Below are positions 16,961 through 58,116 of a DNA stretch of 64,000 bases, piece by piece; position 1 is the first letter of the stretch; each line of letters opens with the position of its first letter. Position numbers and translations under genes: made by a program. Location of the stretch: positions 1 through 64,000 of the forward strand of contig NZ_SSWX01000009.1 of the NCBI RefSeq assembly GCF_004803635.1, written 5' to 3'. The notes under the pieces are model-generated. The model did not search any database. It was given only the letters and a program-made list of their open reading frames with translations, and was not told the DNA's origin. The stretch comes from Lampropedia aestuarii. Lineage in GTDB: Bacteria > Pseudomonadota > Gammaproteobacteria > Burkholderiales > Burkholderiaceae_C.

Positions 16961-17732
16961 ATGTTTGCACCGTCATTGTGAGTCTCTCTACCAATAATAT
17001 GTATCTTGTTTGCATTGCTAGCCCGTTCACTACCCCAGCACACTGGCCTTCAACAGCCAGACATGGCCCTGGCAGCACGGTATCACACCGGCAGCATTCA
17101 GTGGTCACAACACAGAACGCGCCACAATTTCACCAATTGCCTGTAATCTGTACACTTTAGCCATGAGGCATGTTCACGCCTTATGCTAACGCGCTACGAT
17201 GACAAACTATCACAACTCATGCCCGCATTATTGATGCGATTGGCGTATATCAAAAGCCTTCTTTGCTTGAGAACGTGTTTACGATCTTTTCGCAGTCGCG
17301 CAAAACTCCCAAAAAGGCAGTACAAGGCGCCTGTTGCCGCCCGTACGTGAGTACGGCCACAACGGACAACGTCGCAATGCGCTTTTTGTAATTTTGGCGC
17401 TTTGTCCTTCGACTTGGAGCCCAAAGGCGCACTATTGTGTTCAAAACCCCGCCGGGCTATTGGCTCGGCTGCGGTTTTTGCCGTTCATTGCATGCTTTTA
17501 GGCCCCAACGCGGTCTACGCCAAGATCGTACCTGTTCTTAGAAAAGAAAGCGGTTGAAAATATGCCACAAAAATATTGAATTCATTGAATTTCTCTCCCG
17601 TCTGCGTCAACTTTTAACGCAGCGAATGGCCTTGCTGCACTGCACATGGCAACCATCGCCCCCTTTAATTGCAAGCAAAACGGATCAAGCCTTTGCGCTT
17701 TGCCCGCGGCTTGACTTCGCTCGACAAGCACT
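16961..17732. other. Long intergenic region between pilG and hemL
   Basis: About 770 bases separating divergent pilG and hemL. The central 269 bases (17270-17538) are a full copy of the dispersed repeat family. The left 300 bases should hold the pil promoter and the right 190 bases the hemL promoter. Short open frames here are low-complexity or lie in the repeat and I do not call them genes. Confidence 0.6.
17270..17538. repeat. Dispersed repeat element, long copy
   Basis: Left end AGAACGTGTTTACGATCT (17270-17287) and right end AGATCGTACCTGTTCT (17523-17538) are imperfect inverted copies of each other. After the left end comes the shared core (CGCAGTCGCGCAA, GGCAGTACAAGGCGCC, a GTTGCCGCCCGTAC/GTACGGCCACAAC hairpin, CGCAATGCGC). 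The right part holds a second segment, GGAGCCCAAAGGCGCACT and a GC-rich hairpin, that is also found in the copy at 55364. It contains no transposase gene. Confidence 0.8.
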
Positions 17733-19037
17733 ATGAACCACAACGAAACCCTTTTTCTCCGCGCCCAAAAAAGCATTCCAGGTGGGGTCAACTCACCCGT
17801 GCGGGCGTTTAAAGCCGTCGGTGGCACACCTGCATTTATCCACAAGGCCCAAGGCGCTTATCTGTGGGATGCCGATGGCCAACGCTACGTAGACTACATC
17901 GGTTCATGGGGACCGATGATACTCGGCCATGGCCACCCAGAAGTGCTCGCCGCGGTCAGCCAGGCCATGCAACAAGGCCTGTCGTTTGGCGCTCCAACCG
18001 AGCGCGAGATCGAGCTGGCCGAAGAAATCATCAAACTCGTGCCATCCATGGACATGGTGCGCCTGGTCAATTCCGGCACCGAAGCGAGCATGAGTGCGAT
18101 TCGCCTGGCCAGAGGCTTTACTGGCCGCAACAAAATCATCAAATTCGAAGGTTGCTACCACGGTCACGCCGACTCTCTGCTGGTCAAAGCCGGCTCGGGC
18201 CTGGCCACCTTTGGCCACGCCACCAGCGCCGGAGTGCCCCAGGAGGTCGTGCAAGACACCGTGGTGCTGGAATTCAACAACGTCGCCCAGTTGCAAGAGG
18301 CGTTTGCCCAGTTTGGCACCGAGGTCGCCTGCGTGATCATGGAGCCGATTGCCGGCAATATGAACTTTGTGCGTGCCAGTGTGCCTTTCATGCAAGCTGC
18401 GCGCGAGCTCAGTCAACGAGCCGGCGCGCTGCTGATCATTGATGAGGTCATGACCGGCTTTCGCGTCGCCCTGGGCGGTGCGCAAAGCCTGTACGCTCAG
18501 CAAATTCCCGGTTTTGCACCAGATTTGACCGTGCTGGGCAAAGTCATTGGCGGCGGCATGCCGTTGGCCGCCTTTGGTGGGCCCAAACACATCATGGAAC
18601 AACTCGCGCCGCTAGGGCCGGTCTACCAGGCCGGTACCTTGTCTGGCAACCCAGTGGCAACGGCCTGCGGCCTGACCACCTTGCGCCTGATCCAGGAGCC
18701 CGGCTTTCACGCCGCCTTGGGCCAACGCACCCAGTCCCTGATGCGCGGCCTGCACCAGGCTGCCACACAGGCAGGTCTGCCCTTCAGCGTCGACAGCGAA
18801 GGCGGCCTGTTCGGCTTTTTCCTGCTGCCTGAGCTGCCCAGCAACTACAGCCAGGTCATGCAAACCAAAGGCGCGCTGTTCAACCAGCTGTTCCATGGCC
18901 TGCTCCAACGCGGTGTCTACCTGGCTCCCGCCTTGTACGAAGCCGGCTTTGTCAGCGCTGCACACACGCAAGAGGACATTGAACACACGATTGCCGCAGC
19001 CACCGAAGTCTTTGCCGAAATGGTTGCTGGCTTGTAA
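17733..19037 (+). CDS. hemL: Glutamate-1-semialdehyde 2,1-aminomutase
   Basis: Converts glutamate-1-semialdehyde to 5-aminolevulinate with PLP in the C5 route to haem. The product is 434 residues, full length for the family, starting [22 protein letters not shown]. The PLP-binding lysine is Lys270 in [16 protein letters not shown], and [20 protein letters not shown] and [10 protein letters not shown] are typical. The stop codon TAA (19035-19037) is immediately followed by GAACGTATTTC, a degenerate end of the dispersed repeat. It is followed on the same strand by the maf gene 32 bases away. Confidence 0.97.
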
Positions 19038-19048
19038 GAACGTATTTC
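19037..19048. repeat. Degenerate solo end of the dispersed repeat
   Basis: AGAACGTATTTC directly at the hemL stop codon matches the first 12 bases of the repeat terminus. It is short, so on its own this call is weak; the shared position at a stop codon with other copies supports it. Confidence 0.4.
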
Positions 19049-19069
19049 AAAATTGCTTGCTGTATTGCC

Positions 19070-19666
19070 ATGACACTTACTCCTCCCACTCGCCCGTTGA
19101 TTTTGGGTTCGACCTCGCGCTACCGCCGCGAGCTGCTTGCACGTCTGGGCCTGACATTCGATGCCCAGGCGCCCGATGTCGACGAAACACCCGAGGCGGG
19201 CGAAGCGCCCCAAGCGCTGGCCAAGCGCCTGGCGCTTGCCAAGGCGCGCGAAGTCGCCCAGCGCTTTCCAGATGCGATCGTGATTGGCTCAGACCAGGTC
19301 GCCGACTTGCACGGCACGCCCTTGGGTAAACCGCATACGCATGAACGCGCCATCAGCCAGCTCAGCCAGATGAGCGGTCAGACTGTGCTGTTCCATACCG
19401 CCGTCGCCGTGGTCTGCCAGGCCAGCGGCTTTGAAGCGCTGGAAGTGGCCGTGATCCGCACCCACTTTCGCGCCTTGTCGCTGGCCGAGATTGAACGCTA
19501 CCTGCTGGCCGAGCAGCCCTACGACTGCGCTGGCAGTGCCAAAAGCGAAGGTTTGGGCATCAGCCTGCTGCAATCGATTGACAATGACGACCCGACTGCT
19601 TTGATCGGTCTGCCCTTGATTCGCACCTGCCACATGCTGCGCCAAGCCGGACTGCAAATTCCATGA
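19070..19666 (+). CDS. Maf family nucleotide pyrophosphatase, YceF subtype
   Basis: Maf proteins hydrolyse non-canonical or methylated nucleoside triphosphates; the YceF subtype prefers 7-methyl-GTP. The 198-residue product has LILGSTSRYRRELL at the N-terminus, the E-rich DVDETPE segment, IGSDQVADLHG with the catalytic aspartate, and DCAGSAKSEGLGI, which is characteristic of YceF. Its stop overlaps the following methyltransferase start by four bases, so the two are coupled. Confidence 0.88.
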   Translation: MTLTPPTRPLILGSTSRYRRELLARLGLTFDAQAPDVDETPEAGEAPQALAKRLALAKAREVAQRFPDAIVIGSDQVADLHGTPLGKPHTHERAISQLSQMSGQTVLFHTAVAVVCQASGFEALEVAVIRTHFRALSLAEIERYLLAEQPYDCAGSAKSEGLGISLLQSIDNDDPTALIGLPLIRTCHMLRQAGLQIP

Positions 19667-20511
19667 CCACCCCAACACCCTCACCACGCCCACGCGGCAC
19701 TTTGTATCTGGTGCCTGCACCATTGGATTTTGGTTGCAGCGAACAAGCGCCGCTCACCGATGTTTTACCAGCGGGCACCTTGCAGCAAGCGGCCCAGTTG
19801 CAGCACTGGATTGTCGAAAACGCCAAAACTGCGCGCGCCTACCTCAAACGCATTGAAGAGCACGTGCCACTGTGCCAGCCCTTGCAAGCCATGCAAATGG
19901 TCGAGCTGCCACGCGAAGTACACAAGGTCGGCGACCATGCAGGGCAAAAAACCAGTGCCACCAAAGGCGCTAAAAATGCCACGCCAAAGCGCACAGACCC
20001 ACCGGCATTCGATCCACGCAGCCTGCTCAGACCTGCGCTGGATGGGCACGATATGGGCCTGGTCAGCGAAGCCGGCATGCCCGGTGTGGCAGACCCAGGC
20101 TCGTCGATCGTGCGCGCCGCCCACCAATTGGGCCTGCGGGTGGTGCCACTGACGGGGCCTATCTCCTTGCTGCTGGCCTTGGCCGCCTCGGGCCTGAACG
20201 GCCAAAGCTTTGCCTTTATTGGCTACCTGCCACAAGACGACAGCGCCCGCGCCAACGCCTTGCGCATGTACGAAGCCCACGCACGCAAAACCGGCCAGGC
20301 GCAAATCGCGATTGAGACGCCCTACCGCAATGCCAAGCTCTGGCAAGCGTGTTTGCAGCATTTGCAAGCCGATACCTGGCTGTCGGTCCACAGCGGCATC
20401 AGTCTGCCGACTGCGCGCAGCCAAAGCATGTCAGTGAAAAGTTGGCGCAAACAAGGCGAGGAATGCCCAATGGATGGCAAAACTCCGGCTGTGTTTATTT
20501 TTGGCTGTTAA
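19663..20511 (+). CDS. SAM-dependent methyltransferase, tetrapyrrole-methylase (RsmI-like) family
   Basis: A 282-residue protein resembling RsmI, the 16S rRNA ribose methylase. It opens with GTLYLVPAPLDF and has VSEAGMPGVADPGSSIV and VVPLTGPISLLLALAASGLNG, the SAM-binding signature of the family. It differs from RsmI by a long Lys/Pro-rich insert between about residues 88 and 115, and by a divergent N-terminal half. Its ATG overlaps the maf stop. It is probably a paralogue rather than the housekeeping RsmI; the substrate is unknown. Confidence 0.75.
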   Translation: MTTPTPSPRPRGTLYLVPAPLDFGCSEQAPLTDVLPAGTLQQAAQLQHWIVENAKTARAYLKRIEEHVPLCQPLQAMQMVELPREVHKVGDHAGQKTSATKGAKNATPKRTDPPAFDPRSLLRPALDGHDMGLVSEAGMPGVADPGSSIVRAAHQLGLRVVPLTGPISLLLALAASGLNGQSFAFIGYLPQDDSARANALRMYEAHARKTGQAQIAIETPYRNAKLWQACLQHLQADTWLSVHSGISLPTARSQSMSVKSWRKQGEECPMDGKTPAVFIFGC

Positions 20512-20569
20512 GACTAGGTAAGGGAGCGGCGCCCTCCATGGATGGCGCGCCCCCCGCATCACCCCGCCC

Positions 20570-22414
20570 TCAGCGCGTGTGGTGCACTTCCTGCAAACCG
20601 TAGACCTGCACTGGCAGCTGGGCTTCGCGGGCCTTCAATTGCAAGGCCAAATACAGCGAGTAGTGGCGTGACTGGTGCAAATTACCACCGTGGAACCACA
20701 TCGCCTCTTGTTGCGTCGGCTTCCACATATTGCGCTGCTCGCCCTCCCAAGGGCCAGGGTCTTTGGTCGTGTCTGAACCCAGGCCCCAGACCTTGCCGAC
20801 CTTGTTGGCGACCTCAGGGCTGATCAAATCCGCGACCCAGCCATTCATCGAGCCATAACCGGTTGCATAAACCACCAGATCCGCAGGCAACTCCGTGCCA
20901 TCATCGAGCACCACGGCGTTCTCGCTCAAATGGCTGATGCCTTTGCCCGACTGCAGTTTGATGCTGCCATCGATCACCAGATCGCAAGCCCCGACATCGA
21001 TGTAATAGCCTGAAGCGCGGCGCAAATACTTCATGAACAGGCCGGAGTCGTCATCGCCAAAGTCCAGCATGAAACCGGCGTTCTCAAGCTTCTGGTAGAA
21101 CTCGGCATCGCGCTCACGAATGCGGTCGTACAAGGGCACTTGAAAATCGGCCATGATGCGGTAGGGCAGCGAGGCAAAAATCAAATCGGCTTTCTTGGTC
21201 GTCACGCCACTGGCCACGGCTCGCTCCGAGTACAAGTCGCCCAAGCCAATATCCATCAGCGAATCCGAGCGCACAATGTGCGTGGATGAGCGCTGCACCA
21301 TGGTCACGTCAGCGCCATGCTCCCACAGCGCAGCGCAAATATCGTGGGCGGAGTTATTCGCGCCAATCACCACCACCTTCTTGCCGGCATATGCATCTGG
21401 GCCTGAGTGCTGGGACGAATGCTGCTGCGCGCCCTTAAACACATCCTGCCCGGGAATGCTGGGCACAAACGCCTTGCCCGACATGCCGGTGGCAAACACC
21501 AGGTGTTTGGGCCGGATCACCAGCTCCTGGCCATCCCGCTGCACCGTCACTTCCCACTCTTTGGCCGCTTCGTTGTAATGGGCTTTGAGGCAATTGGTGG
21601 ATGACCAGTAATTGACCTCCATCACCTTGGTGTACATCTCCAGCCAGTCACCAATCTTGTCCTTGGGCGCAAACACCGGCCAGTTGTCAGGAAACGGCAT
21701 ATACGGCAGGTGGTCATACCAGACCGGGTCGTGCAGGCACAGCGACTTGTAGCGGCTACGCCATTGGTCACCAGGACGCGCATAGCGGTCGACGACGATG
21801 TGCGAGACGCCCAATTGCCGCAGGCGCGCCCCCAGCGCAATACCGCCTTGGCCGCCGCCAATCACCAACACAAACGGTTGTTCTGTCACGCCCAAATTAG
21901 CCGCTTCTGCCAGCTTGCGGTCTTGCCAGGTCTGGCGCCCACGGCGAATGCCATGCTCAGCGCCCATAGGGCGGCGCGTGCCTATTGGCTCTTCATGGCC
22001 TTTGAGCTCCTGAGCCGTGGTCAACAAGGTCCAGATTCGGCCTTCTTTGATGCGGATGTGGCCGTAGCCGCGCATCGCCTTGGTATCGACCGTGATCCAG
22101 GCCGAGCACACGCCATCGGCCTCCTCGGTGAGCTCATTGGGATCCAGGCCAAACACGGCCGACTCGATGGCTTGCAGTTGCGCATCCAGCATGTGCTTAA
22201 TGGCCGCTTGCCCCTCCATGGTTTTCAAGTTCCATGTAAACAGCACCAAATCGCGCCAATAGCATTCGGTTGCGAACAAGTCGGCGGCGGCCTGGCTGTC
22301 ACGGCGCGCCAGCGCGTCGTTCAACTGCTCAAGCAGCGCTTGCACTTGCGCTCGGGCAGGCTCTGGCGTTTGTGCAAAGCGGCGCACGGCTTGGTCAACA
22401 GTCGGTTGATTCAT
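20570..22414 (-). CDS. Flavin-containing monooxygenase with N-terminal SnoaL-like domain
   Basis: A 614-residue NADPH- and FAD-dependent oxygenase. Residues about 25-135 look like an NTF2/SnoaL fold; the FAD-binding GGGQGG is at 186-191, an FMO-type FKGAQQHSSQH motif at about 326-336, and the NADPH-binding GANNSA at 351-356. These FMOs perform N- or S-oxidation or Baeyer-Villiger reactions; the substrate is not evident. The ATG at 22414 has AGGAG eight bases upstream. A sigma-54 promoter 39-54 bases upstream of the ATG and a divergent sigma-54 activator gene indicate inducible expression. It is convergent with the methyltransferase gene. Confidence 0.88.
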   Translation of the reverse strand: MNQPTVDQAVRRFAQTPEPARAQVQALLEQLNDALARRDSQAAADLFATECYWRDLVLFTWNLKTMEGQAAIKHMLDAQLQAIESAVFGLDPNELTEEADGVCSAWITVDTKAMRGYGHIRIKEGRIWTLLTTAQELKGHEEPIGTRRPMGAEHGIRRGRQTWQDRKLAEAANLGVTEQPFVLVIGGGQGGIALGARLRQLGVSHIVVDRYARPGDQWRSRYKSLCLHDPVWYDHLPYMPFPDNWPVFAPKDKIGDWLEMYTKVMEVNYWSSTNCLKAHYNEAAKEWEVTVQRDGQELVIRPKHLVFATGMSGKAFVPSIPGQDVFKGAQQHSSQHSGPDAYAGKKVVVIGANNSAHDICAALWEHGADVTMVQRSSTHIVRSDSLMDIGLGDLYSERAVASGVTTKKADLIFASLPYRIMADFQVPLYDRIRERDAEFYQKLENAGFMLDFGDDDSGLFMKYLRRASGYYIDVGACDLVIDGSIKLQSGKGISHLSENAVVLDDGTELPADLVVYATGYGSMNGWVADLISPEVANKVGKVWGLGSDTTKDPGPWEGEQRNMWKPTQQEAMWFHGGNLHQSRHYSLYLALQLKAREAQLPVQVYGLQEVHHTR

Positions 22415-22452
22415 GCTTGTCTCCTGTAGTGGTCATCATGGCCATGGCTGTT

Positions 22453-22468
22453 TGCAAACCCTGTGCCA
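22453..22468 (-). promoter_or_regulatory. Sigma-54 promoter of the monooxygenase gene
   Basis: On the minus strand the sequence reads TGGCAC, five bases, TTGCA: an exact match to the -24/-12 consensus with correct spacing (-24 box 22463-22468, -12 box 22453-22457). Transcription would begin near 22441, giving a leader of about 28 bases that includes the AGGAG ribosome-binding site. The adjacent divergent gene encodes a sigma-54 activator. Confidence 0.85.
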
Positions 22469-22616
22469 ACAAAAAAACAGCTAAGGCCAGCCAAATAAAC
22501 AATGATTTATCAATGACTTATAAAAACACACTACGGACTATCCAGCAGTTCAGCCGAACGTATGACGGCGCTGCAAGGCGCCACAACTATTGCAGTTAAC
22601 GCCACAGCTGCGCACC

Positions 22617-22634
22617 GTGCAACACCTGTTGCAC
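22617..22634. promoter_or_regulatory. Candidate upstream activator site (palindrome)
   Basis: GTGCAACACCTGTTGCAC is a perfect inverted repeat of 8-base arms around a 2-base centre, about 150 bases upstream of the sigma-54 promoter and 140 bases before the activator gene. A half-site-like GCAACA recurs at 22651-22656. Position and symmetry fit an enhancer bound by the divergent AcoR-like regulator. Confidence 0.6.
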
Positions 22635-22774
22635 CACCCACTGCCGCACTGCAACATGCCGTTTGGGTAATCCTTATTCCCCCTGCTGGACTTTGCCAAC
22701 ACAATGGGGCTGAGCACGCCCTGTGACCACCACAAGGCGCTTGATCCAGCATCCGCAACCGCCACGATCAGCCC

Positions 22775-24898
22775 ATGCCCACCCAGTCCCATGCCGCCCA
22801 CATCCAGGAGATTGAAGCCTTTGGCCAAGGCTATCGAACGCATGCGCATGGACGCGACCGGGCGGTGCTCAGCAGTTGGCGCCGCTGCATTGACCACTAC
22901 CAACTCGATCCGGCGCACACCTGCGAGGCGTATATCGTCCCCGAAGGCCAGTTGCGCGTGCACCGCGAAGAGTCTGAGCCGCTCATTCGCATTGCCCGCA
23001 GCGGGCTGGAGCGCCTCTACCAACAGCTCAAAGGCCTGGACTACGTGCTGCTGCTGGCCGATCGCCACGGCATTGCGGTGGACTTTCTAGGCCATGACAT
23101 AGATGCGCAAGATTTAAGGCAAGCCGGCCTGTACCTGGGTGCAGAATGGCGCGAAGACCGCGCAGGCACCTCGGCTGTGGGCGCCTGCCTGGCCAGCGGC
23201 AATGCGCTGATCGTGCACCAGAGCGACCATTTTGACTACACCCACTCGCAGCTCTCCTGCACCGCCGCGCCCATTTACGACTTGCATGGCGAGCTGGCAG
23301 CGGTGCTCGATTTGTCCTTGCTGCAAGCGCCCAAAGAGCGCGCCAGCCAGAATCTGGCCTTGAATTTGGTGATTGCAGCAGCACGCCGAATCGAACTGGC
23401 CAATTTAATGGCGCAATCGCGCAGTGACTGGGTATTGCGCTTTGCCCAATCGCCGGATTTTCTTGATGTCGACCCCGATGCCGCCATCAGCATCGATGCA
23501 CGCGGGCGTATCCGTGCAATGACGCACGCCGGCGCGCGCAGCCTGAGCACGATGGCCGGCCTCGATTGGCGCCAGCGCCACAGCCTGATTGGGCAGCCAC
23601 TAGAGCATTTTTTTGACTGCGATACACGCCACCTGCCCGAGCTGCGCCGCAACCGTGCCGCGCAAGAACGCATCCTGCGCGCCCGCGATGGCAGCATCGT
23701 GTTTGCCCATGCGATGGAGCCGCAGCGCAGCATAGCGCGCAGCAGCGCATTGAAAGCGGCACAGCTGTCGCCGTCTGCTGCGACAGCTGCCCAAGCGCCC
23801 TTGCCTGCCGCCTTGCAGCCACTGCACGCAGGTGATGCCACGATGCACACCTTACTGCACAAAGCCGCCAAACTGGCACACCACAACCTGCCGGTTCTGA
23901 TCCAGGGCGAAACCGGGGCGGGCAAAGAGTACTTGGCACGCGCGTTGCACGACTGCAGCGGCCGATCTGGCGCCTTTGTCGCCATCAACTGCGCAGCCAT
24001 TCCCGAAGCCTTGCTAGAGAGCGAGCTGTTTGGCTACCTGCCAGGCACCTGGACGGGTGGAGCCAGCAAAGGCCGCCAAGGTTTGATTGAAGCCGCTGAC
24101 GGCGGCAGCTTGTTTTTGGATGAAATTGGCGATATGCCGCTGGGCCTGCAAGCCAAATTGCTGCGTGTACTGGCGGAATCGCAAATCACCCCGTTGGGCG
24201 CACGCGCGCCCAAACCGCTCAATCTGCGCATCATCTCGGCGTCTCACCGCAGCTTGCATGACTGCGTACAAACCGGCCAGTTTCGCCAAGACCTGCTCTA
24301 CCGCCTCAATGCCGCAACGCTGTGTCTGCCGCCGCTGCGCGAGCGCAGCGACCTGGCCGCAATGCTTGAGCGGCTCTTGGACAATCTGTGCAAGCCGCCT
24401 GTCACAGGCGCAGCGCAGCACGCACCGGCCTGTTACCAGCTCAGCGAAAGCGCCTTGAGCGCGCTGCTGGCCTATGATTGGCCGGGCAACCTGCGCGAGC
24501 TGGACAATGCCTTGCGCTATGCAGTGGCCTTGTGCGAAGTGCCGCAGCAGCTCGGCTACGCCACCCCTGCACTGGCGCGCATTGAGTTGTGGCATCTGCC
24601 TGATGCGCTGCAAGCCCAAGCGCCCCCTCGCAACCACCCCGCAGCGAAAGAGACCACTGATGCAGCGCGGCCACCGCTGCCATGCAGCAGCGGGCCGCAG
24701 CACATGCCATGGCCCACCGCCGCAAGCAGTGCAAACCAAGCGGCACACGACCTAGAGCGCTTGCTGGCCCAGTGCGATGGCAATGTATCGGAAGTGGCGC
24801 GGCTGCTAGGGGTCAATCGCTCGACCGTGCACCGGCGCATTCAACGCTTGCTGGGTGCGCGCCAAGTGCATTGGCAAGGGCGGCAACCACCGCCTTAG
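22775..24898 (+). CDS. Sigma-54-dependent activator, AcoR-like (GAF, AAA+, Fis HTH)
   Basis: An enhancer-binding protein of 707 residues. An N-terminal GAF-type sensory region (about 60-220) is followed by a linker, an AAA+ domain with Walker A GETGAGKE at 378-385 and Walker B LFLDEIGD, an arginine-finger region, and a C-terminal Fis-type helix-turn-helix ([20 protein letters not shown]) near the end. The sigma-54 contact loop, normally GAFTGA, reads GTWTGG starting at residue 424. It is divergent from the monooxygenase gene, which carries an exact sigma-54 promoter, so that gene is the likely target. The inducer is unknown. Confidence 0.88.
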
Positions 24899-24955: not shown

Positions 24956-24983
24956 CAGGCTCTTGAACGTATTTACGATCTTA
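24956..24983. repeat. Two dispersed-repeat ends, head to head
   Basis: GCAGGCTCT (24956-24963 with flank), an inverted end, is followed directly by TGAACGTATTTACGATCTTA (24964-24983), a direct end. The TAA stop codon of the BON-domain gene (24981-24983, minus strand) lies inside the second end. Confidence 0.6.
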
Positions 24984-28100: not shown

Positions 28101-28178
28101 TAACCTGTTCAAAATCTCGACGCAGCCGCGTTGAAGCCCAAAGGGAATCGCTGCGTGGCAACTACGCCTTGCGCGACG
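28101..28178. repeat. Dispersed repeat element, truncated copy
   Basis: TAACCTGTTCAAAATCTCGA, CGCAGCCGCGTTGAAGCCCA and a terminal CGCCTTGCGCGACGGCG match the left end, middle and right core of the copy at 55364-55581. The right terminal inverted repeat is missing. It starts immediately after the pseudouridine synthase stop codon. Confidence 0.6.
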
Positions 28179-38718: not shown

Positions 38719-38878
38719 AGAGCCTGTTCAACATTCAGCGCGCCGTCGCGCAAGGCACAACAAAGAGGCTGTGCAAGGCGCCTGTTGCAGCTCATTCCTC
38801 TGTATGCGCAAAACGGGCAACGCCACAATGCACTTTTTGGGGCTTCAACGCGGCTGCGTCGAGATGATGAACAGGCTC
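38719..38878. repeat. Dispersed repeat element, complete copy
   Basis: Left end AGAGCCTGTTCA (38719-38730) and right end TGAACAGGCTC (38868-38878) are perfect inverted copies over 11 bases. The core has CGCGCAAGGCACAA, GCAAGGCGCCTGTTGC and GCAACGCCACAATGC, shared with the copies at 17270 and 48854. Confidence 0.8.
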
Positions 38879-40321: not shown

Positions 40322-40492
40322 AGAACCCGTTGACTGGCTTTTAGCAGTTGCGCAAGGCATCAAAGGGCAGTGCAAGGCGTCTGTTGTCGCTCATACGCGG
40401 GTATGCGCGGCAACAGGCGGCGCAGTCATGCGCCTTATGGTCTGGCCTTGGGACTTCCAACGCGGTCTGCTAAAGGTTCATAAACAGGTTCT
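40322..40492. repeat. Dispersed repeat element, complete copy
   Basis: Left end AGAACCCGTTGACTGGCTTT (40322 onward) is degenerate; right end CATAAACAGGTTCT (40479-40492) is close to consensus in inverted orientation. The core hairpin is GTTGTCGCTCATAC/GTATGCGCGGCAAC. The last two bases belong to the TAA stop codon of the yebC-family gene. Confidence 0.75.
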
Positions 40493-45908: not shown

Positions 45909-45958
45909 AGAACGTGTTTACGCTTTAAGAACGTATTCACGATCTAAGAGCCTGCTAC
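45909..45958. repeat. Tandem array of three dispersed-repeat ends, 19-bp period
   Basis: AGAACGTGTTTACGCTT (45909), AGAACGTATTCACGATCT (45928) and AGAGCCTGCTAC (45947) begin exactly 19 bases apart. All match the outer end of the dispersed element, but no core follows. Confidence 0.75.
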
Positions 45959-47292: not shown

Positions 47293-47400
47293 AGAGCCTG
47301 TTGGCGATCCTTTCGCAGTCGCGCCAGGGACAAAAAAAGACGGTACCGCAATGCGCTTTAATGTCCCCTCCCCTTCAGCTTGAAGAGGGTGTGCAGGCTC
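47293..47400. repeat. Dispersed repeat element, copy lacking most of the core
   Basis: AGAGCCTGTTGGCGATCC, TTTCGCAGTCGCGCCAGGGA and GCAATGCGCTTTAATG match the left end and flanks of the core; the central hairpin is deleted. The right end GTGCAGGCTC is a partial inverted end. It lies nine bases after the glycosyltransferase stop. Confidence 0.7.
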
Positions 47401-48853: not shown

Positions 48854-48985
48854 AGAACCTGTTTACGATTTTTTCGCAGCCGCGCAAGGCACAAAAAAGA
48901 GGCAGTGCAAGGCGCTCGTTTTGCGCATACGCCCGTATGAGCAAAACGGGCAACGCCACAATGCGCTTTTTTGTAAACAGGCTCT
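48854..48985. repeat. Dispersed repeat element, compact complete copy
   Basis: The best short copy: left end AGAACCTGTTTACGAT (48854 onward), then TTTTTTCGCAGCCGCGCAAG, GGCAGTGCAAGGCGC, a hairpin CGTTTTGCGCATACG/CGTATGAGCAAAACG (one mismatch in 15), GGCAACGCCACAATGCGC, and right end GTAAACAGGCTCT. The right end overlaps the TAG stop of the Bug-type gene (48984-48986). Confidence 0.85.
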
Positions 48986-50170: not shown

Positions 50171-50190
50171 AGAACGTGTTTACGATCTTA
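50171..50190. repeat. Solo end of the dispersed repeat
   Basis: AGAACGTGTTTACGATCTTA is a near-consensus outer end without the core or a partner end. It is preceded by TT, as at the other solo ends. Confidence 0.75.
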
Positions 50191-50330: not shown

Positions 50331-50912
50331 ATGACAGGCAAAAAAATTCTGATGATCTGCGGCGACTACTGTGAAGACTACGAAACCATGGTGCCGTTTC
50401 AAGCGCTGCTGGCCGTTGGCCACACCGTGCATGCGGTATGTCCCAACAAAAAAGCCGGCGACCACATCAAAACCGCGATCCATGATTTCGAAGGTGCGCA
50501 AACTTACAGCGAAAAGCCGGGCCACAATTTCACACTCAACGCCAGCTTTGCCGATGTCAAGGCCGAGCAATACGACGCACTGGTGATTCCCGGTGGCCGC
50601 GGCCCCGAGTATTTGCGCAACGAGCCCGCCGTGATTGCTGCCGTGCGCCACTTCTTTGATGCCAATAAACCAGTCGCAGCGGTATGCCACGGTGCGCAAT
50701 TGCTCGCTGGCGCAGGCGTGCTCAAGGGCCGCACCTGCTCGGCCTACCCGGCTTGCAAGGTCGAAGTGGAGTTGGCTGGCGGCACCTATGCCGATATTGC
50801 CGTTGACCAGGCCCACACCGATGGCAATCTGGTCAGCGCCCCTGCCTGGCCTGCCCACCCAGCGTGGTTGGCGCAGTTCTTAGCCTTGCTGGGCACACGC
50901 ATCACCCATTAA
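50331..50912 (+). CDS. DJ-1/PfpI family protein
   Basis: A 193-residue class I glutamine-amidotransferase-like protein. [15 protein letters not shown] opens the fold; the nucleophile elbow AVCHGAQLL places Cys119 next to His120, as in PfpI proteases, glyoxalase III and deglycase-type members. An AGGAGAGAG ribosome-binding site precedes the ATG. Activity cannot be fixed from sequence; stress or carbonyl detoxification is common for the family. It is followed by proA 60 bases away. Confidence 0.88.
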
Positions 50913-50972
50913 AGACGCGCTGAAGCTGGCCGTGGTGCGGCACAAATGCCCAGTCTTTGGCACAATATTGGG

Positions 50973-52253
50973 ATGAACACCCGCACCACTGAAGAGATCA
51001 TGCACGCCATGGGCGTGCAAGCACGCCGTGCCAGCGCCCGCATGGCGATTGCCAGCGCCAAGGAAAAAGCCCTAGCACTGCGCTTTTTGGCCGATTTGCT
51101 GCGCCAGCAAGCGCCGGCATTGCAGGTTGAAAACGCCAAGGACTTGGAGCGCGCGCGCGCCAATGGCCTGACCGAACCGATGGTCGACCGCCTGAAACTG
51201 ACAGACACCATTCTGGAAACCGCAGCCCAGGGCTGTGAACAACTGGCCGCCATGCCCGACATCATTGGCGATGTGATCGGTCTGCGCCAGCAGCCATCGG
51301 GTATTCGCGTGGGCCAAATGCGTGTGCCACTGGGTGTGTTCGGCATGATTTACGAAAGCCGCCCCAACGTCACGATTGAAGCGGCGAGTTTGGCCATTAA
51401 AAGCGGCAATGCCTGCATTTTGCGCGGTGGCTCCGAAGCGATTGACTCCAACAAAGCGCTGGCAGCTTTAGTGCGCCAGGCGCTGGTGCATGCGCAGCTG
51501 CCTGAAGACGGCGTGCAACTGGTGCCGACCACCGACCGCGCCGCTGTAGGCGCGCTGATCACCATGCCCGAGTATGTGGATGTAATCATTCCACGCGGCG
51601 GCCGTGGCCTGATCGAGCGCATCAGCGCCGAGGCCAAAGTGCCGGTGATCAAGCACTTGGATGGCATTTGCCACACCTATGTCGACGATCCAAGCAATAT
51701 TGAACAGGCGGTGGTGATTGCCGACAACGCCAAAACGCACAAGTACAGCCCTTGCAACGCCACCGAGACCTTGCTGGTCGCACGCGGCGTGGCCGAGCAG
51801 TTCCTGCCCAAGATTGCCGCCATCTACGCGGCCAAAGGGGTGGAGATGCGCGTCACCGATGAGGCGCGCGCCTGGGTCAGCCAAGCGCCGCAAGCCCATG
51901 TCGTGTCTGCCACCGAAGCCGACTGGAGCACCGAGTACCTGGCGCCGATCATCAGCATCAAAATCGTTGCCGGACTGGACGAGGCCATTGCCCACATCAA
52001 CCAATACGGCAGCCACCACACAGATGCGATCGTCACCAACAACCACCAGCATGCGCAGCGCTTTTTGCGCGAGGTCGATTCGGCCAGCGTGATGGTCAAT
52101 GCCAGCACGCGCTTCGCCGATGGCTTTGAGTTTGGTCTGGGCGCCGAGATCGGCATCAGCACCGACAAATTCCATGCGCGTGGGCCTGTTGGCGTTGAAG
52201 GCCTGACTTCGCTCAAATTCATCGTGCTGGGCGAGGGCGAAATTCGCCAATAA
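50973..52253 (+). CDS. proA: Gamma-glutamyl phosphate reductase
   Basis: Reduces gamma-glutamyl phosphate with NADPH to the semialdehyde in proline synthesis. The 426-residue product has [28 protein letters not shown], and catalytic Cys261 in [31 protein letters not shown] is the typical C-terminal motif. The ATG at 50973 (MNTRTTEEI) is preferred to the in-frame ATG at 50946. proB is not adjacent. A strong intrinsic terminator follows at 52279. Confidence 0.96.
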
Positions 52254-52278
52254 ACGCACTGCCAACGCGCAGCCCATC

Positions 52279-52321
52279 AGCACGCCTGGCGCGGTTCACA
52301 CTGCAAGGCGTGCTTTTTTTC
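52279..52321 (+). terminator. Intrinsic terminator of proA
   Basis: AGCACGCCT (52279-52287) pairs perfectly with AGGCGTGCT (52306-52314), followed by a run of seven T. It lies 26 bases after the proA stop. Confidence 0.9.
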
Positions 52322-52348
52322 ACCCCATTGAAGCCACTACCAACGCCC

Positions 52349-52654
52349 ATGATCACCTGCTATTTGCGCTACATCATTGATGCCGACAAACTGGGCGAAT
52401 TTGAGCATTACGCCCAATTATGGATTCCGCTGGTCAATCGCTTTGGTGGCCAGCACCACGGCTATTTCCTGCCCTCCGAAGGCGCCAACAACGTCGCCTA
52501 CGCGTTGTTCAGCTTCCCAAGCCTGGCGCTGTATGAGCAATACCGCATCGACTCCATGCAAGACGCCGAATGCCTGGCAGCTTTTGCCTATGCAAAAAGC
52601 ACACGCTGCATCATCAGCTACGAGCGCAGTTTCTTACGACCGGTGTTTGCGTAA
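52349..52654 (+). CDS. NIPSNAP family protein
   Basis: A 101-residue dimeric alpha-beta barrel-type protein. MITCYLRYIIDADKLGEFEHY and the phase of short strands and helices match the NIPSNAP family, and GYFLPSEGANNVAYALFSF is typical. Function is undefined. I use the ATG at 52349; the frame extends upstream into the proA terminator and is not credible there. Confidence 0.78.
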   Translation: MITCYLRYIIDADKLGEFEHYAQLWIPLVNRFGGQHHGYFLPSEGANNVAYALFSFPSLALYEQYRIDSMQDAECLAAFAYAKSTRCIISYERSFLRPVFA

Positions 52655-52740
52655 ACGCCGTTGGCCTGCCATGGCCACAGCATCACAGCGGGCTTGTGAC
52701 GAACTTGACAGAGTCCTAAAGCCCAGCTTCAACAGCCTTT

Positions 52741-52760
52741 AGAGCCTGTTTACGATCTCC
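52741..52760. repeat. Solo end of the dispersed repeat
   Basis: AGAGCCTGTTTACGATCTCC matches the outer end over 18 bases, preceded by TTT. No core follows. Confidence 0.65.
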
Positions 52761-52854
52761 TTGCAGGCTGGCGCCATTTGCTGCGGCAGGAATGAATCAG
52801 CAGCCCGCATCAGGCAATGCGCCATTTCACCATGGCAAGGCATAAAATGGCGCC

Positions 52855-54528
52855 ATGCTGAAAATCAAACAAGACTTGCTGAACGGTCTGGCCGCTGTGC
52901 TGGACCAGATCTCCCCTGGCGCTGGCGACAAAGCGGCATTTGAGCTGCCCCGCCAGCCAGAACATGGCGACTATGCCATCACGGCCGCCATGCAATTGGC
53001 CAAGCCCCTGAAACAAAATCCGCGCGCCCTGGGCGAGCAGATCAAGGCCGCGCTGCAAGCGCAGCCCGTCTACCAACAATGGGTGCAAGCCGTTGAAATT
53101 GCTGGCCCCGGCTTTTTGAACCTGCGTTTGACCCCCGCTGCCAAGCAAGAGCTGGTGCGCGAAGTGCTGGGCGCTGGCAAAGAGTTCGGCCTGCAGCCCC
53201 AGCGCGATGAGCGCGTGGTGGTCGAGTTTGTCTCGGCCAACCCAACCGGCCCGCTGCACGTTGGCCATGGCCGCCAAGCCGCGCTGGGCGATGCCATTTG
53301 CCACTTGCTGGGCTCGCAAGGCTGGCAAGTGCACCGCGAGTTCTACTACAACGACGCTGGTGTGCAAATCGACACCCTGACCAAAAGCACGCAGCTGCGT
53401 GCGCAAGGCGTCAAACCGGGCGATGCCGGCTGGCCAGAAGCCGCCTACAACGGCGACTACATCCAGGACATTGCCGACGATTTTCTGGCGAAGAAAACCG
53501 TCAAAGCCGATGACCGCGAGTTCACCGCCAATGGCGATGTGAATGACTACGACAACATCCGCCAGTTTGCCGTCGCCTACCTGCGCAACGAGCAAGACAA
53601 AGACCTGCAAGCCTTCAATCTGAAGTTTGACCAGTACTACCTGGAGTCCAGCCTGTATGAGAGCGGCCGCGTTGAGCAAACCGTGCAGCGCCTGATCGAC
53701 CAGGGCCATACCTATGAGCAGGACGGCGCGCTGTGGCTCAAATCCACCGACTACGGCGACGACAAAGACCGCGTGATGCGCAAGTCCGAAGGCGGCTTCA
53801 CCTATTTTGTGCCCGATGTGGCCTACCACATCGCCAAATGGGAGCGCGGCTACCACAAGGCCATCAATATCCAGGGCACCGACCACCACGGCACCATCGC
53901 CCGCGTGCGCGCTGGCTTGCAAGCGGCCGATGTCGGCATTCCGACCGGCTACCCCGACTACGTGCTGCACACCATGGTGCGCGTCGTGCGTGGCGGCGAA
54001 GAAGTCAAAATCAGCAAGCGCGCTGGCAGCTATGTGACCTTGCGCGACCTGATCGAGTGGACCAGCAAGGATGCGGTGCGTTTCTTCCTGCTCTCGCGCA
54101 AACCTGATACCGAATACACCTTCGACGTTGACCTGGCTGTGTCGCAAAATAACGACAATCCGGTCTATTACGTGCAATACGCCCATGCGCGCATCAACAA
54201 GATTTTGCGCGATTGGGGCGGCTCGCTGGAATCACTGAGCACCGTGGATTTGTCGGCACTGGATACCCCGGCAGCACAGGCCCTGCTGGTGAACCTGGCC
54301 AAATACCCGGACATGCTGACTGGCGCAGCGCGCGACTTTGCCCCACACGACGTGAGCTTCTACCTGCGCGACTTAGCTGCCAGTTACCACAGTTACTACG
54401 ATGCCGAACGCATTCTGGTCGACAATGAAGCGGTTAAACTGGCCCGTCTGGCGCTGATTGCTGCGACCGCGCAAGTGTTGCGCAACGGTCTGGCAATGCT
54501 GGGCGTCTCTGCCCCTGAGCGCATGTAA
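52855..54528 (+). CDS. argS: Arginyl-tRNA synthetase
   Basis: Charges tRNA-Arg. The 557-residue class I synthetase has an N-terminal Add-1 domain, the HIGH-type motif [17 protein letters not shown] at about residues 132-148, VKISKRAG as the KMSKS-like loop, and a helical anticodon-binding C-terminal domain. Length is normal. The SPOR-domain gene follows after 25 bases. Confidence 0.97.
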
Positions 54529-54553
54529 TCCTGAACGCAAGCTCCCACTAGCT

Positions 54554-55255
54554 ATGGCAAAAAAAACCACCCGACGCAAGTCCGGATCCGAACAGCGCGG
54601 CGGCACGCTCGCCGGCATTCTGATTGGCCTGACCATTGGCGGCATCCTGGCCATTGGCGTGGCCTTGTATGTCTCGAAAATGCCGGTGCCCTTTCTGAAT
54701 ACCTCATCGAATCTGCGGCCATCGGCGCTTGATGCCACAGAGCAAGAGCGCAATAACGCGTGGAACCCCAATGCTGCACTGTCGGGCAACCGCTCGGGCA
54801 CGCAAACCACCACGCAAACGCAACAGCGCCCATTAGGGCCAGACACGGCCTCACAAGACCAGTCGCCGCCGGTGATTCCTGAGCCGCCGTCGGAAGTCGT
54901 CGCGGTCGCGCCTGTGACCCCTGGCAGCACCGATCCGCTGGGTGAATTGGCCGCGCGCGTTGGCAACCGCCCTGGTGCTGCTGAGCCCACGGCCAGCACG
55001 CCGCCGACCTCTGCCGATCCCTACCAGTACTTTGTCCAGGCCGGCGCCTACCGCGCCCGCAGCGACGCCGACGCGCAACGCGCCCGTCTGGCAATGAACG
55101 GCTGGGATGCCAGCATCACCAGCCGTGACGCCCAAGGCCAAACGGTGTACCGCGTGCGGGTAGGCCCATTCAATAAGAGCGAGGATGCAGCCAATATCAA
55201 ACGCCAGTTTGACCAACAAGGCTTTGACTCTGCAGTGGTGCGCCAAGCGCGTTAA
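54554..55255 (+). CDS. SPOR-domain cell-division protein, FtsN-like
   Basis: A 233-residue bitopic protein: short basic cytoplasmic tail (MAKKTTRRKSGSEQ), one transmembrane helix (GTLAGILIGLTIGGILAIGVALYV), a Pro/Thr/Gln-rich periplasmic linker, and a C-terminal SPOR domain (YFVQAGAYRARSDADAQRARL, VYRVRVGPFNKSEDA) that binds denuded septal glycan. It lies directly after argS, a common arrangement in Burkholderiales. An intrinsic terminator follows. Confidence 0.88.
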   Translation: MAKKTTRRKSGSEQRGGTLAGILIGLTIGGILAIGVALYVSKMPVPFLNTSSNLRPSALDATEQERNNAWNPNAALSGNRSGTQTTTQTQQRPLGPDTASQDQSPPVIPEPPSEVVAVAPVTPGSTDPLGELAARVGNRPGAAEPTASTPPTSADPYQYFVQAGAYRARSDADAQRARLAMNGWDASITSRDAQGQTVYRVRVGPFNKSEDAANIKRQFDQQGFDSAVVRQAR

Positions 55256-55302
55256 GCAGCTCTCCACAGCCGGCCGTCAGCTTGCCGTGCCGTCTCTCCC
55301 AA

Positions 55303-55335
55303 AGCGCCATGTTGTACACAGCATGGCGCTTTTTT
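55303..55335 (+). terminator. Intrinsic terminator of the argS-SPOR operon
   Basis: AGCGCCATG and CATGGCGCT form a perfect 9-bp stem around a 10-base loop, followed by six T. It lies about 48 bases after the SPOR gene stop. Confidence 0.9.
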
Positions 55336-55352
55336 GATTGGGCAACAACTTG

Positions 55353-55581
55353 AGCAGGTTCTAAGAACCTGTTTAGGATCTTTTCGCAGACCGCGTTGAA
55401 GCCCAAAAGAATGCAATGCGCGGCAAAAACCGCAGTCGGGCTCTCAGCCCGGCGAGGATTTTTAACAAAGCAGTGCGCCTTTTGGGCTTCAACCCGAAGG
55501 GCAAGGCGCAAAAAAGCGCATTACTGCGTTGCCTGTTTTTTTGTGCCTTGCGCGACTGCGAAAAGATCCTAAACAGGTTCT
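55353..55581. repeat. Dispersed repeat element, long copy with perfect 26-bp terminal inverted repeats
   Basis: A solo inverted end, AGCAGGTTCT (55353-55362), abuts the element proper (55364-55581). The terminal 26 bases (55364-55389 and 55556-55581) are perfect inverted copies, starting AGAACCTGTTTAGGATCT. Inside are GTTGAAGCCCAAAAG and its inverted partner CTTTTGGGCTTCAAC, and a CGGGCT-CTC-AGCCCG hairpin. The right end supplies part of the TAG stop codon of the TauE-like gene (55580-55582). Confidence 0.85.
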
Positions 55582-56353
55582 AAAACACGAACAAGCCCGC
55601 ATCGCGCAGCGCCGACCACAGCAACTGCATGCAGGCAACCGCCATGATGGTTTTAAAGCCAATCTCAAAGTAGCGCTCAGGCAAACGCTCGAGTAATTGG
55701 CTGCCGGCATACACGCCCACATACCCAGCGCCAATCATCAACACCAGCAAAAAAGCCCAGGCACCATAGGCAAAACCCAGGCCACCAAATAGCAGCACTT
55801 TCAAGCCGTGCTGCGCAACCATAGAGGCCGCTTGTGTGGCCACCAGCGCATGTTTTTGCAGCTTGCCAGCAGACAGCACAGCCGCCACCAAGGGCCCTGT
55901 AGCGCCCACAAACATACTGGCCAGCCCCGTCAAAAAGCCGCCGCCCACCAGCCAGCGGCGGCTGAACGTCGACAAGCGGTGTTTGCGGCCAAACACCGTC
56001 CACATAATGAATACAGCCAGCAGCATTTTCAGCAATGCATCGGGAATCGAAAACACCACAGCACCGCCTGTGAGCACGCCCAGCATAGAGCCCAGTGCAA
56101 ACCACAGAAATAGGCTGCGCTCAATGTAGCGACGCTGGATCAACGAGCGGCTGATGTTGGAGCCCAATTGCACAATGCCATGCAAGGGCAGCACCGTGGC
56201 CATCGGCAAGCCCATGCTCAGGACGACCAGCATCAGCATGCCGCCCCCCAGGCCAAATGCCCCCGTCAGAGCCGAAGTGCAAAAACTGGTTAGCACCAAA
56301 ATAACAAAGAACGTCGCACTGATATCTGGCGGCAGCCATTCAAACCCGCTCAT
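55580..56353 (-). CDS. TauE/SafE family sulfite exporter-like membrane protein
   Basis: A 257-residue membrane protein with seven to eight helices. The repeated glycine motifs TGAFGLGGGMLML and GFLTGLASMFVGATGPLVA are typical of TauE/SafE (DUF81) anion exporters. Its ATG overlaps the ribD stop by four bases, so it is translated from the ribD transcript. The last codons run into a dispersed repeat, which provides the stop. The exported anion is unknown; a nearby sulfatase is suggestive only. Confidence 0.85.
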   Translation of the reverse strand: MSGFEWLPPDISATFFVILVLTSFCTSALTGAFGLGGGMLMLVVLSMGLPMATVLPLHGIVQLGSNISRSLIQRRYIERSLFLWFALGSMLGVLTGGAVVFSIPDALLKMLLAVFIMWTVFGRKHRLSTFSRRWLVGGGFLTGLASMFVGATGPLVAAVLSAGKLQKHALVATQAASMVAQHGLKVLLFGGLGFAYGAWAFLLVLMIGAGYVGVYAGSQLLERLPERYFEIGFKTIMAVACMQLLWSALRDAGLFVF

Positions 56354-57600
56354 GACTGTGCCGCGTCGCTGTGGTAATCGTTGTGGTGATCGTTGTGAGA
56401 CATGTCCTGTCTCAGCGCTCTTAAACACAGGTCTGGGCCCACCAAGCGCGGCTCTAACCAGCGGTAACGCGGGGCTTGTGCGAGGCTGTCCAGTGGCTGT
56501 GGCAACGTGGCCATGCCACGGCCAAGACCCAGCATCGCAGGCGCCACATACAGCAGCCACTCATCCACCAAACCCGCTTGTAATAAACCGGCATTCAGGC
56601 TCGCGCCAGCCTCCACATGGATTTCATTGAGCGGCATGGCCGCCGACAACGCACCAATGGCTGCGTGCAGATCCAAACCAGACGCCGCTGAAGCTGCAGT
56701 GCTGGGCGTCAGCGCCACACGCAGCACCCGTGCGCCTTGGGCTTCGAGCGCCTGCTGCTTATTGCGCTGTGCTTGTGCCCAAGCAGCGTCATCGCCATCG
56801 GCCAGCGCCTGCGCGACTATCCATACTTGGCGACCTGGCACTTGCCAGAGCCTGGCATGCAGCGGCGTACGCAATTGGCTGTCGACAATCGCCAAATGCG
56901 GCTGGCGTTGTGGCAGGGCCGAATCGGGCGAGCGCCAATCACGCACATTGAGTTGCGGGTCATCGGCCAGCACCGTGCCAATGCCAGTCAGCACCACATC
57001 AGCGCGAGCGCGCCAACGCTGACCATCCGCACGCGCAGCCGGGCTGGTAATCCATTGGCTTTGGCCATCAGGCAAGGCGGTATACCCATCGATAGAGGCA
57101 GCCACTTTGGCGCGCAGCCAAGGCCGGCCAGTTTCCATGCGCTGTAAAAAGCCCAGATTCAATTGCCGCGCCTGCTCTGCACCATCGCCGACCTCCACTG
57201 CGATGCCTGCCGCTTGCAAGCGCGCCAAGCCTTGCCCTGCGACCTGGGGATTCGGGTCAGCCAGCGCTGCGACGACGCGGCCCAAGCCTGCTGCGACCAA
57301 GGCGTCACAACACGGCGGTGTGCGGCCATAGTGCGCGCAGGGCTCGAGCGTGACGTAAGCCGTAGCACCGGCAACGCTATGGCCTTGTGCTGCAGCATCA
57401 CGCAGCGCCATCACCTCCGCGTGTGGACCACCAACGGGCTGGGTATGGCCTTCACCGAGCACACGCTGGCCATCTGCACTCACAATCACACAGCCCACGG
57501 CCGGATTGGGATTAGTGAAACCCACGGCACGCGCAGCCAGTGCCAAGGAACGTTGCATCCAATCGGATGGGGCAGAAGAGGACTGTACAAACATCGACAC
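56350..57600 (-). CDS. ribD: Bifunctional riboflavin deaminase/reductase
   Basis: Performs steps 2 and 3 of riboflavin synthesis. The 416-residue product has an N-terminal deaminase with zinc ligands His60 (GPHAEV), Cys88 and Cys97 (EPCAHYGRTPPC), and a C-terminal reductase with KVAASIDGYTAL and DVVLTGIGTVLADDPQLNVR. The GTG at 57600 has AGGGAG six bases upstream; an ATG two codons later is the alternative. The usual ribE partner is replaced by a tauE-like gene, and upstream lies a shrunken acetyltransferase gene. Confidence 0.95.
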   Translation of the reverse strand: MSMFVQSSSAPSDWMQRSLALAARAVGFTNPNPAVGCVIVSADGQRVLGEGHTQPVGGPHAEVMALRDAAAQGHSVAGATAYVTLEPCAHYGRTPPCCDALVAAGLGRVVAALADPNPQVAGQGLARLQAAGIAVEVGDGAEQARQLNLGFLQRMETGRPWLRAKVAASIDGYTALPDGQSQWITSPAARADGQRWRARADVVLTGIGTVLADDPQLNVRDWRSPDSALPQRQPHLAIVDSQLRTPLHARLWQVPGRQVWIVAQALADGDDAAWAQAQRNKQQALEAQGARVLRVALTPSTAASAASGLDLHAAIGALSAAMPLNEIHVEAGASLNAGLLQAGLVDEWLLYVAPAMLGLGRGMATLPQPLDSLAQAPRYRWLEPRLVGPDLCLRALRQDMSHNDHHNDYHSDAAQS

Positions 57601-57615
57601 ACGCGACTCCCTGTC

Positions 57616-57870
57616 TTAACCGCGGACACCCGCCATCGACCGGCCTTTGTTGGGCTGGACAGCCGCATACGGGCAAGTTGCCAGCACCTCGATGCCGCTC
57701 GCTCGGACCACGCCCAGGCCAGTCAATCTGTCATCCACTCGGGTGTGGCCCACGATGGCCTGCTTGTCGTTGACACGGCTGTGCATCATCTCGGCGACCA
57801 GGTTACCGCTGTGCGCCATGCATAAACCGCGGCCTTGTTGATTGCCGATGTGGGCGATAGGGAAAGACAT
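57616..57870 (-). pseudogene. Shrunken GNAT acetyltransferase (COG2388/YjdJ type), probably decayed
   Basis: An 84-residue frame that aligns by eye with the small COG2388 acetyltransferases. NLVAEMMHSRVNDKQAIVGH and TRVDDRLTGLGV correspond to the central strands and the acetyl-CoA loop, and SGIEVLATCPYAA to the C-terminal strand. Between GLGV and VRASG about twelve residues that normally form the helix after the acetyl-CoA loop are missing, in frame. The N-terminus is also weak. It has a start with AAGG nearby and ends 15 bases before ribD. I read it as a recent remnant; a small functional protein cannot be excluded. Confidence 0.55.
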
Positions 57871-58116
57871 CACAAACCTTAAAAGGGCCAACGCTTGCAG
57901 CACGATTCGGGCGCCAAGGGCATCCACTCAGCGTGTACAAGCGGCCATTGAAGAAGTTTGTAAGCATAGTGCAAACCTGCCCAACACGCAGCGCAGTGAG
58001 TACACCACGGGGCGCATACCGACCATTTGCTCAAATACCATAGGACTCTTAGAACGTGTTTACGATCTTAGAGCTTGATGGAGCCGTCTCTCTATCCTTG
58101 AGGACACATTAGCCCA
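57871..58116. other. Intergenic region between the MBL hydrolase gene and the GNAT remnant
   Basis: About 245 bases with no gene. It contains the repeat ends at 58051-58080, immediately before the MBL hydrolase stop region. Confidence 0.5.
58051..58080. repeat. Solo end of the dispersed repeat with a degenerate second copy 19 bases on
   Basis: AGAACGTGTTTACGATCTT at 58051 is the consensus end, and AGAGCTTGATG starts at 58070, exactly 19 bases later. The same period occurs in the array at 45909. Confidence 0.7.

Follow-up and report, generated by a model that had tools for sequence, protein, structure and literature searches.

A 64,000-nucleotide stretch of Lampropedia aestuarii DNA (contig NZ_SSWX01000009.1, positions 1 to 64,000; hereafter the window) carries scattered copies of an intergenic repeat that, judged by its sequence anatomy, is an IS5-type miniature inverted-repeat transposable element (MITE), and whose interior holds two inverted copies of one bulged hairpin. 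The usual explanation of a MITE is an insertion sequence (IS) that has undergone an internal deletion. The repeat described here is very probably a MITE moved in trans by IS5-family transposases, with a two-armed core that is not of IS origin and that has spread and changed its ends.

The first-pass annotation of the window had proposed a dispersed repeat family with a shared end, and the searches bear this out. The end motif AGAACSTGTTTACGATCTT, with up to three mismatches, matches 11 times in the window (at 17270, 24964, 40474 on the minus strand, 45909, 45928, 48854, 50171, 52741, 55364, 55563 on the minus strand, and 58051) versus 0 in 100 shuffles, and at least 271 times in the whole genome of the organism (G000, a draft of 4,173,824 bases in 75 contigs) versus 4 for the reversed pattern. 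Copies outside the window reveal the full element, which reads GAAC...GTTC, is about 264 bp long, occurs in both orientations and is bounded by terminal inverted repeats (TIRs) of about 26 bp. A BLAST search of the same genome with one copy returned 330 candidates, the best 40 of which match at 88-100% identity across 220 or more of 270 positions, and the arm model R1 (E 0.001) finds at least 144 arms among the best 150 of 3579 candidates scored. No reading frame is open in all 60 elements compared, the best being open in 44 of 60 (threshold 80 codons, in GC-rich DNA).

The flanks of these copies carry the target duplication expected of a transposable element. Among 31 full copies in the own genome, TNA stands at 29 left and 29 right flanks, and the two flanking triplets are equal in 24 of the 31 versus 11.1 by shuffling, 22 of the 24 equal pairs being TAA or TTA. 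A search of an 84,980-genome collection for ends 206-236 bases apart yielded 53 stretches with 55 elements, whose span is 257-272 bp, where the pattern permitted 246-276; here, equal triplets flank 37 of 55 copies versus 11.7 by shuffling. Elements with these ends, termed type A, occur in Lampropedia, Corticibacter, Acidovorax, Paenacidovorax, Paracidovorax, Comamonas and Simplicispira, as well as in Chromobacterium, Chitinimonas, Chitinolyticbacter, Methylobacillus, Dyella, Alloalcanivorax and some metagenome-assembled genomes, one of which is labelled Verrucomicrobia, possibly through a binning error. Copies in the own genome also show a second TIR type, GAGCCTGTTCAAAGTCTC, around the same core, at both ends together.

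An autonomous element with the same ends, suggested by the first-pass annotation as something to look for, is present in the congener G005. This IS (L085) carries GARCCTGTTCACGATCTTTT at both ends, the same as the type-A TIRs, with one end reading GAGCCTGTTCACGATCTTTTT and the other GAACCTGTTCACGATCTTTTG; it is about 845 bp long and contains two frames, of which the second scores 111.3 bits against the IS5-family model NF033580 of NCBIfam (cut-off 110) and the first 87.2 bits, below the cut-off. Since a congener has an IS5-family element bounded by these ends, IS5-type transposases can plausibly move the repeat. In genome G009, an IS with GAACCTGTTCAAAATCTTTT ends shows equal TNA flanks at four separate copies (L092-L095), while its tandem copies (L074, L090, L096) have no simple flank pairs. 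Ends of a type B-like form, CAAARTCT, occur on IS in G009, G007 and G001, and a third pairing joins a G009 IS, whose two ends read GAGCGTGTTATGCACTTTT and GAGCGTGTTATGAACTTT, to a MITE in G156 with GAGCGTGTTATGCACTTTT ends. The repeat is like the IS5 family in sharing the TIRs of L085 and in having TNA duplications like those of the G009 copies, and differs in that the IS are about 845 bp long, encode a transposase and yielded no arms. At 17 PF13340-bearing IS loci, no arm lies inside the IS (E 0.01), the sole arms found adjoining the IS of L092; on this ground, a plain IS remnant or internal deletion of an IS was rejected. Another PF13340-bearing IS in G009 (L068, about 1421-2254) has a different end, CTAGGCCGAATCGACATTCA, which matches no MITE end seen here. 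The first-pass suggestion of a MITE is therefore upheld by the inverted ends, the TNA duplications, the dispersed copies without a transposase and the congener IS5-family element, with mobilisation in trans suggested by the ends and duplications.

The interior of the complete element is made of two inverted copies of one bulged hairpin of about 104 nt, set around a small CCCnnnGGG hairpin. The interiors of the 55 elements often share little sequence, while the two-armed fold around the CCCnnnGGG hairpin recurs among the folds listed. Folded without its TIRs, the core has a folding energy below the shuffled mean in 60 of 60 elements (z −3.3 to −16.4, 40 shuffles each); some elements, L167, L178 and L214 among them, form a single long hairpin instead, their arms being inverted copies, and six had no clear orientation. 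When aligned with each other, the two arms prove to be one hairpin in two inverted copies, and the set used for model building (A1) comprises 39 arms from 21 of the 60 elements, three non-aligning arms of those 21 being excluded. RNAalifold places 31 pairs in these 39 arms, 29 of them with changes on both sides; pairing is 93.7% versus 61.4% in shuffled arms, and covariation is 0.838 versus 0.236, with slid controls at 0.11-0.16. A second set (A2), consisting of 74 arms from 45 loci outside the model-building set, gives 96.3% pairing and a covariation of 0.949 versus 0.198 shuffled, in an alignment made by the model, which leans the counts toward the model structure. Around the bulges, the letters conserved in at least 85% of the 74 arms include the 5′-side AGGC and GC and the 3′-side GCAAC.

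The arms also carry a strand signal. On the modelled strand, which reads each half from outside to inside, G·T cells number 90 versus 19 A·C cells; by locus, G·T exceeds A·C in 35 versus 3, with 7 ties (p 6.7e-8 without kinship correction). Two neighbouring pairs supply 37 of the 90 G·T cells, and the excess sits in the inner arm (68 versus 3), the outer stem being near equal (22 versus 16). These counts suggest that the folding strand is defined; an RNA of the arm met first would explain this, and single-stranded DNA could do so too.

The core is far more widespread than the exact type-A ends. Of 300 genomes sampled from the order, 117 (66 of 135 genera) have R1 arms at E 1e-5; of 398 sampled from the phylum, 62 (35 of 213 genera) have them at E 1e-6. 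Copy numbers are lower bounds, since 13 candidates per genome were scored for the order and 10 for the phylum. Of the 62 arm-bearing phylum genomes, 11 belong to the order, 15 lie elsewhere in the class and 36 outside it; 29 of these 36 fall in a single family (f79), many with a single match, and two inverted arms were confirmed outside the class at L288, L293 and L294. Of 399 genomes of the order, only 3, among them the own genome, have exact type-A ends at element distance, and therefore the ends are variable and the core is common. A second arm, inverted beside the first and not demanded by the model, is present in 28 of 45 loci. Matching inverted ends enclose the arms in 28 of 29 two-armed loci (score at least 10), giving elements of 264-279 bp, and at the remaining locus (L256) inverted ends are visible with a one-base slip; about 20 end types were counted by eye among the two-armed loci.

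Searches of plasmids with the window copies and L267 gave no match, nor did searches of phages with L182 and L291. L182 does match one Variovorax plasmid record, and relatives of the L291 type lie on four plasmid records (Pseudomonas, Halomonas, Azotobacter), e.g., NZ_CP017294.1 at 8548-8817, where no feature is annotated. A single arm, with no second above threshold, was also seen in genome G785 (L295:1501-1604), just downstream of what appears by eye to be rpmF.

In the mechanism that we propose, IS5-family transposases would recognise the TIRs of the approximately 264-bp element, move it in trans and duplicate a TNA target, and the interior would be a conserved two-armed folded core rather than an IS remnant. 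This core would have spread through the Pseudomonadota, gaining ends that match different IS5-type transposases, probably by exchange of ends rather than by slow co-evolution. Copies would then decay by deletion into one-armed copies, end-to-end hairpins of about 50 bp and solo footprints of 16 bp, the footprints arising when slippage between ACGATCT in one TIR and the ACGTTCT created where the other TIR meets the target T excises the element almost precisely. The core itself would act as a folded single strand, either RNA or single-stranded DNA, its most likely benefit being tolerance or retention of a copy.

Forms that fit such decay are present in the own genome. Micro-elements of about 48-52 bp, in which one TIR is joined almost directly to the other, are the smallest two-ended form and were identified by eye at G000:C12 29971, 58396 and 140787 (in L221, L222 and L227). 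Solo 16-bp ends, counted after excluding ends that continue into an element, number 46 in the sampled own genome, with TNA at 43 left and 42 right flanks and equal flank pairs in 29 of 46 versus 19.8 shuffled (p 0.0016). At window position 50172, CTTA-(16 bp)-TTATAGC stands where the relative G002 has CTTATAGC, a net 19-bp insertion, as read from the letters; the aligner put the gap elsewhere, and the rightward match to G002 is only TAGC. These solos fit near-precise excision, being the product expected of a deletion between ACGATCT in the left TIR and ACGTTCT in the right TIR plus target T, which leaves GATC or GTTC; slippage is the putative route. It is rather unlikely that the solos are instead independently inserted 16-bp units or a protein-binding site, a reading that draws on their high uniformity (an identical 16-mer in 28 of 46) and on the flanks in G003 given below. 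Flanking triplets that match above chance in the own genome argue against it, as do product ends of the form G(A/T/C)TC-TNA, which the 7-bp imperfect repeat predicts. So does the same search in relatives with GAACCTG TIRs, which weaken that repeat: G001 (at least 65 end matches, most of those listed having GAACCTG ends) and G004 (at least 114 end matches, three copies seen with such ends) both have 0 solos.

What the core does is a separate question, on which the placement of the elements bears. Placement was scored at 111 own-genome sites with a home-made gene caller; the sites are partly pattern matches and so non-random, and only sites flanked by called genes on both sides were counted. None of the 111 insertion sites lies inside a called gene; 23 are convergent, 15 divergent and 73 tandem, with no departure from intergenic gaps in general, and 54 of 119 flanking gene 3′ ends versus 11 of 103 5′ ends lie within 30 bp of the element. 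It is possible, if short of probable, that the core works as RNA, an arm transcribed from outside inward folding co-transcriptionally and terminating or insulating transcription, such that an insertion behind a gene is harmless. The closeness to 3′ ends speaks for this, as does the excess of G·T over A·C on the strand read from the TIR inward, that is, on the arm which a polymerase meets first from either side, and so does TTTT in the 3′ stem of 20 of 39 A1 arms, with AAAA in 0. However, TTTT occurs in only 14 of 74 arms of the second set, with AAAA in 5, and the preference for convergent gaps is not significant (23 of 111 versus 17.2 expected, p 0.23), and therefore a terminator role is not general; a general transcription terminator as the sole role was rejected on the same gap orientations and TTTT counts. 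The closeness to 3′ ends, moreover, may reflect TAA stop codons serving as TNA targets together with selection against promoter hits.

Ranked slightly below RNA-level insulation, and on the unlikely side, is a role at the DNA level, in which the arms would extrude as single strands or a cruciform at replication, recruit a transposase or host factor and thereby raise mobility or retention. The two-fold symmetry of the element, its conserved bulges and its constant length agree with this, and DNA hairpins also tolerate G·T, so the strand signal is compatible with it; against it stand the lack of arms inside the IS at the 17 PF13340-bearing loci and the lack of a known binding protein. Quite unlikely is an inherited core with no function, in which template-switch correction during replication would keep the palindromes perfect. 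Such correction is a known process for quasi-palindromes, and one-armed and arm-less deletions do exist; however, the conserved bulges and internal loops described above, with AGGC and GCAAC on opposite sides, would not survive correction, which also leaves the strand-specific G·T excess and the constant size unexplained. The element was not recognised from known families in the first-pass annotation, and comparison with Rfam 15 agrees, with only three consecutive tRNA genes (155-485, minus strand) reaching threshold in the window and nothing doing so in the elements of the window, of a set of 4 loci or of a set of 12 loci. A known RNA family was accordingly rejected, the sub-threshold matches inside elements (isrK, 21.4 of 50 bits; mir-301, 25.2 of 56 bits) being taken as chance. 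An integron attC-like site was rejected on a comparison with the consensus made by eye only.

Several results weigh against the account of a transposase-mobilised MITE with a two-armed folded core, beyond the low TTTT count, the absence of a convergent preference and the model-led alignment of the second arm set. In that set, double-change pairs barely exceed the shuffles (36 of 500 as high), and the same is true of further pair types (48 of 500 as high); in addition, two genomes, G048 and G135, supplied arms to both sets, at different places. The flanks of L085, the IS with matching ends, are unequal (TCA/TTA). The own-genome loci examined yielded no IS with type-A ends, in a draft that can hide IS copies, and the IS5 copies examined there are broken; their ends, where visible, read GTTCAAAGTCT, which parallels the second TIR type GAGCCTGTTCAAAGTCTC on the MITE core. 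PF13340 was found in only 5 of 20 other arm-bearing genomes, and therefore most TIR types are without an identified partner. As for the footprints, G003 has 15 solos with equal flanks in only 6, and at most loci the G002 flanks have diverged too far to give a clean empty site.

The copies in the window are mostly decayed. Both arms survive in one, another keeps its two ends and has a damaged arm, two more are one-armed and one is rearranged; the rest are fragments and solos. The near-complete two-armed element (17271..17537, minus strand, 267 bp) has both arms matched by R1, one at 17297..17396 on the plus strand (48.9 bits, E 3.1e-7) and the inverted one at 17414..17512 on the minus strand (43.7 bits, E 3.9e-6); its right TIR is damaged, and it lies between TGA on the left and TTA on the right, with no duplication. 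The two-ended copy (55365..55580, 216 bp), which like all the following features is on the plus strand, has perfect 26-bp TIRs (55364-55581) and TAA/TAA flanks, with one arm full (55392-55493, R1 E 1.6e-12) and the other partly deleted. The segment GTTGAAGCCCAAA, described in the first-pass annotation as an extra in the longer copies, is indeed present there and belongs to one of the two arms rather than being an addition. Three loci had been taken as complete copies of about 130-170 bp; against a complete unit of about 264 bp, two of them are one-armed, namely 38720..38878, with GAGCCTGTTCA-type ends and an arm at 38747-38846 (R1 E 1.2e-5), and 48855..48984, of 130 bp with TAA/TAA flanks and an arm at 48881-48982 (R1 E 0.0014). 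The third (40323..40491) is, by sequence comparison, a rearranged copy with a degenerate left end, and it has no counterpart in the relative G002, in an alignment whose edges are not clean.

Most of the other listed loci also stand. Variant ends stand at 28101, 38719 and 47293; they fall outside the three-mismatch scan and became visible in later comparisons, the first being a truncated end with the start of an arm and a CAAAATCTC-type TIR (28104..28142) and the last a left-end fragment (47294..47346), both placed by sequence comparison. The locus at 19037 does not hold up as a copy, consisting of a short, weak end fragment (19035..19055) where the reading frame 17733-19037 has its stop codon, seen in the sequence and outside the AGAACSTGTTTACGATCTT scan. 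Solo 16-bp footprints with equal flanks lie at 45929..45944 (a AGAACSTGTTTACGATCTT match with TAA on both sides), at 50172..50187 (TTA/TTA, with a single TTA at the matching place in G002) and at 58052..58067 (TTA/TTA, by flank comparison). The first of these is in tandem with a solo end at 45910..45925 (TTA left, TAA right); a further solo end at 24965..24980 (CTT left, TTA right) and an end fragment at 52742..52757 (TTA left, TCC right) show no duplication, and all three are AGAACSTGTTTACGATCTT matches.

Among known systems, the closest is MITEPsy1 of Pseudomonas syringae, described in the cited sections as 100 nt long, with ISPsy2-like TIRs and a CTAG/YTAA duplication, and as having moved in an assay (PMC3189936). 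As described there, MITEPsy1 is likewise short and gene-less, with TIRs resembling those of an IS5 element and a target duplication; unlike it, the present element of about 266 bp has a conserved two-armed core that recurs across genera with different ends, a contrast drawn from the description and not from interior sequence. The R0, R2, R178 and R200 repeats of Pseudomonas fluorescens are reported, in the portion cited, as intergenic, several folding into hairpins and R0 and R2 sharing ends with resident IS (PMC2718517); the likeness in these three traits is by description, and the repeats differ in size, at 89-320 bp. The enterobacterial RU repeats, small mobile intergenic units likened to MITEs in the parts of the papers used here, differ in unit size, at 127, 168 and 103 bp (PMC2759123, PMC2229807), again by description only. 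Repetitive extragenic palindromes (REPs), given as 20-40 bp in the cited section (PMC3733652), and the related REPINs resemble the element in being palindromic intergenic repeats, and differ in that its unit is larger and has long TIRs and target duplications. The REP-type alternative of the first-pass annotation was dropped on these features, with no search made for a RAYT gene. The conserved two-armed core is unusual; no Rfam family or paper listed in the searches names it, the literature search covering the open-licence part of PubMed Central, with most subscription papers outside it and ISfinder not compared.

At its boldest, and with something less than an even chance in our judgement, the family could be an old, independently evolving lineage of structured selfish elements that swaps its ends according to the IS5-type transposase available and whose fold, as RNA or single-stranded DNA, is selected for survival of the element; it would then form a new class of mobile element and not a decayed IS. 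With one folded core found between about 20 end types, one can test if a non-coding element outlives its transposase through a change of ends, and if the fold is under selection as RNA or as DNA. The 16-bp footprints may record past excisions, and the covariance model can be used to annotate copies that have no annotation at present, such as those on the four plasmid records.

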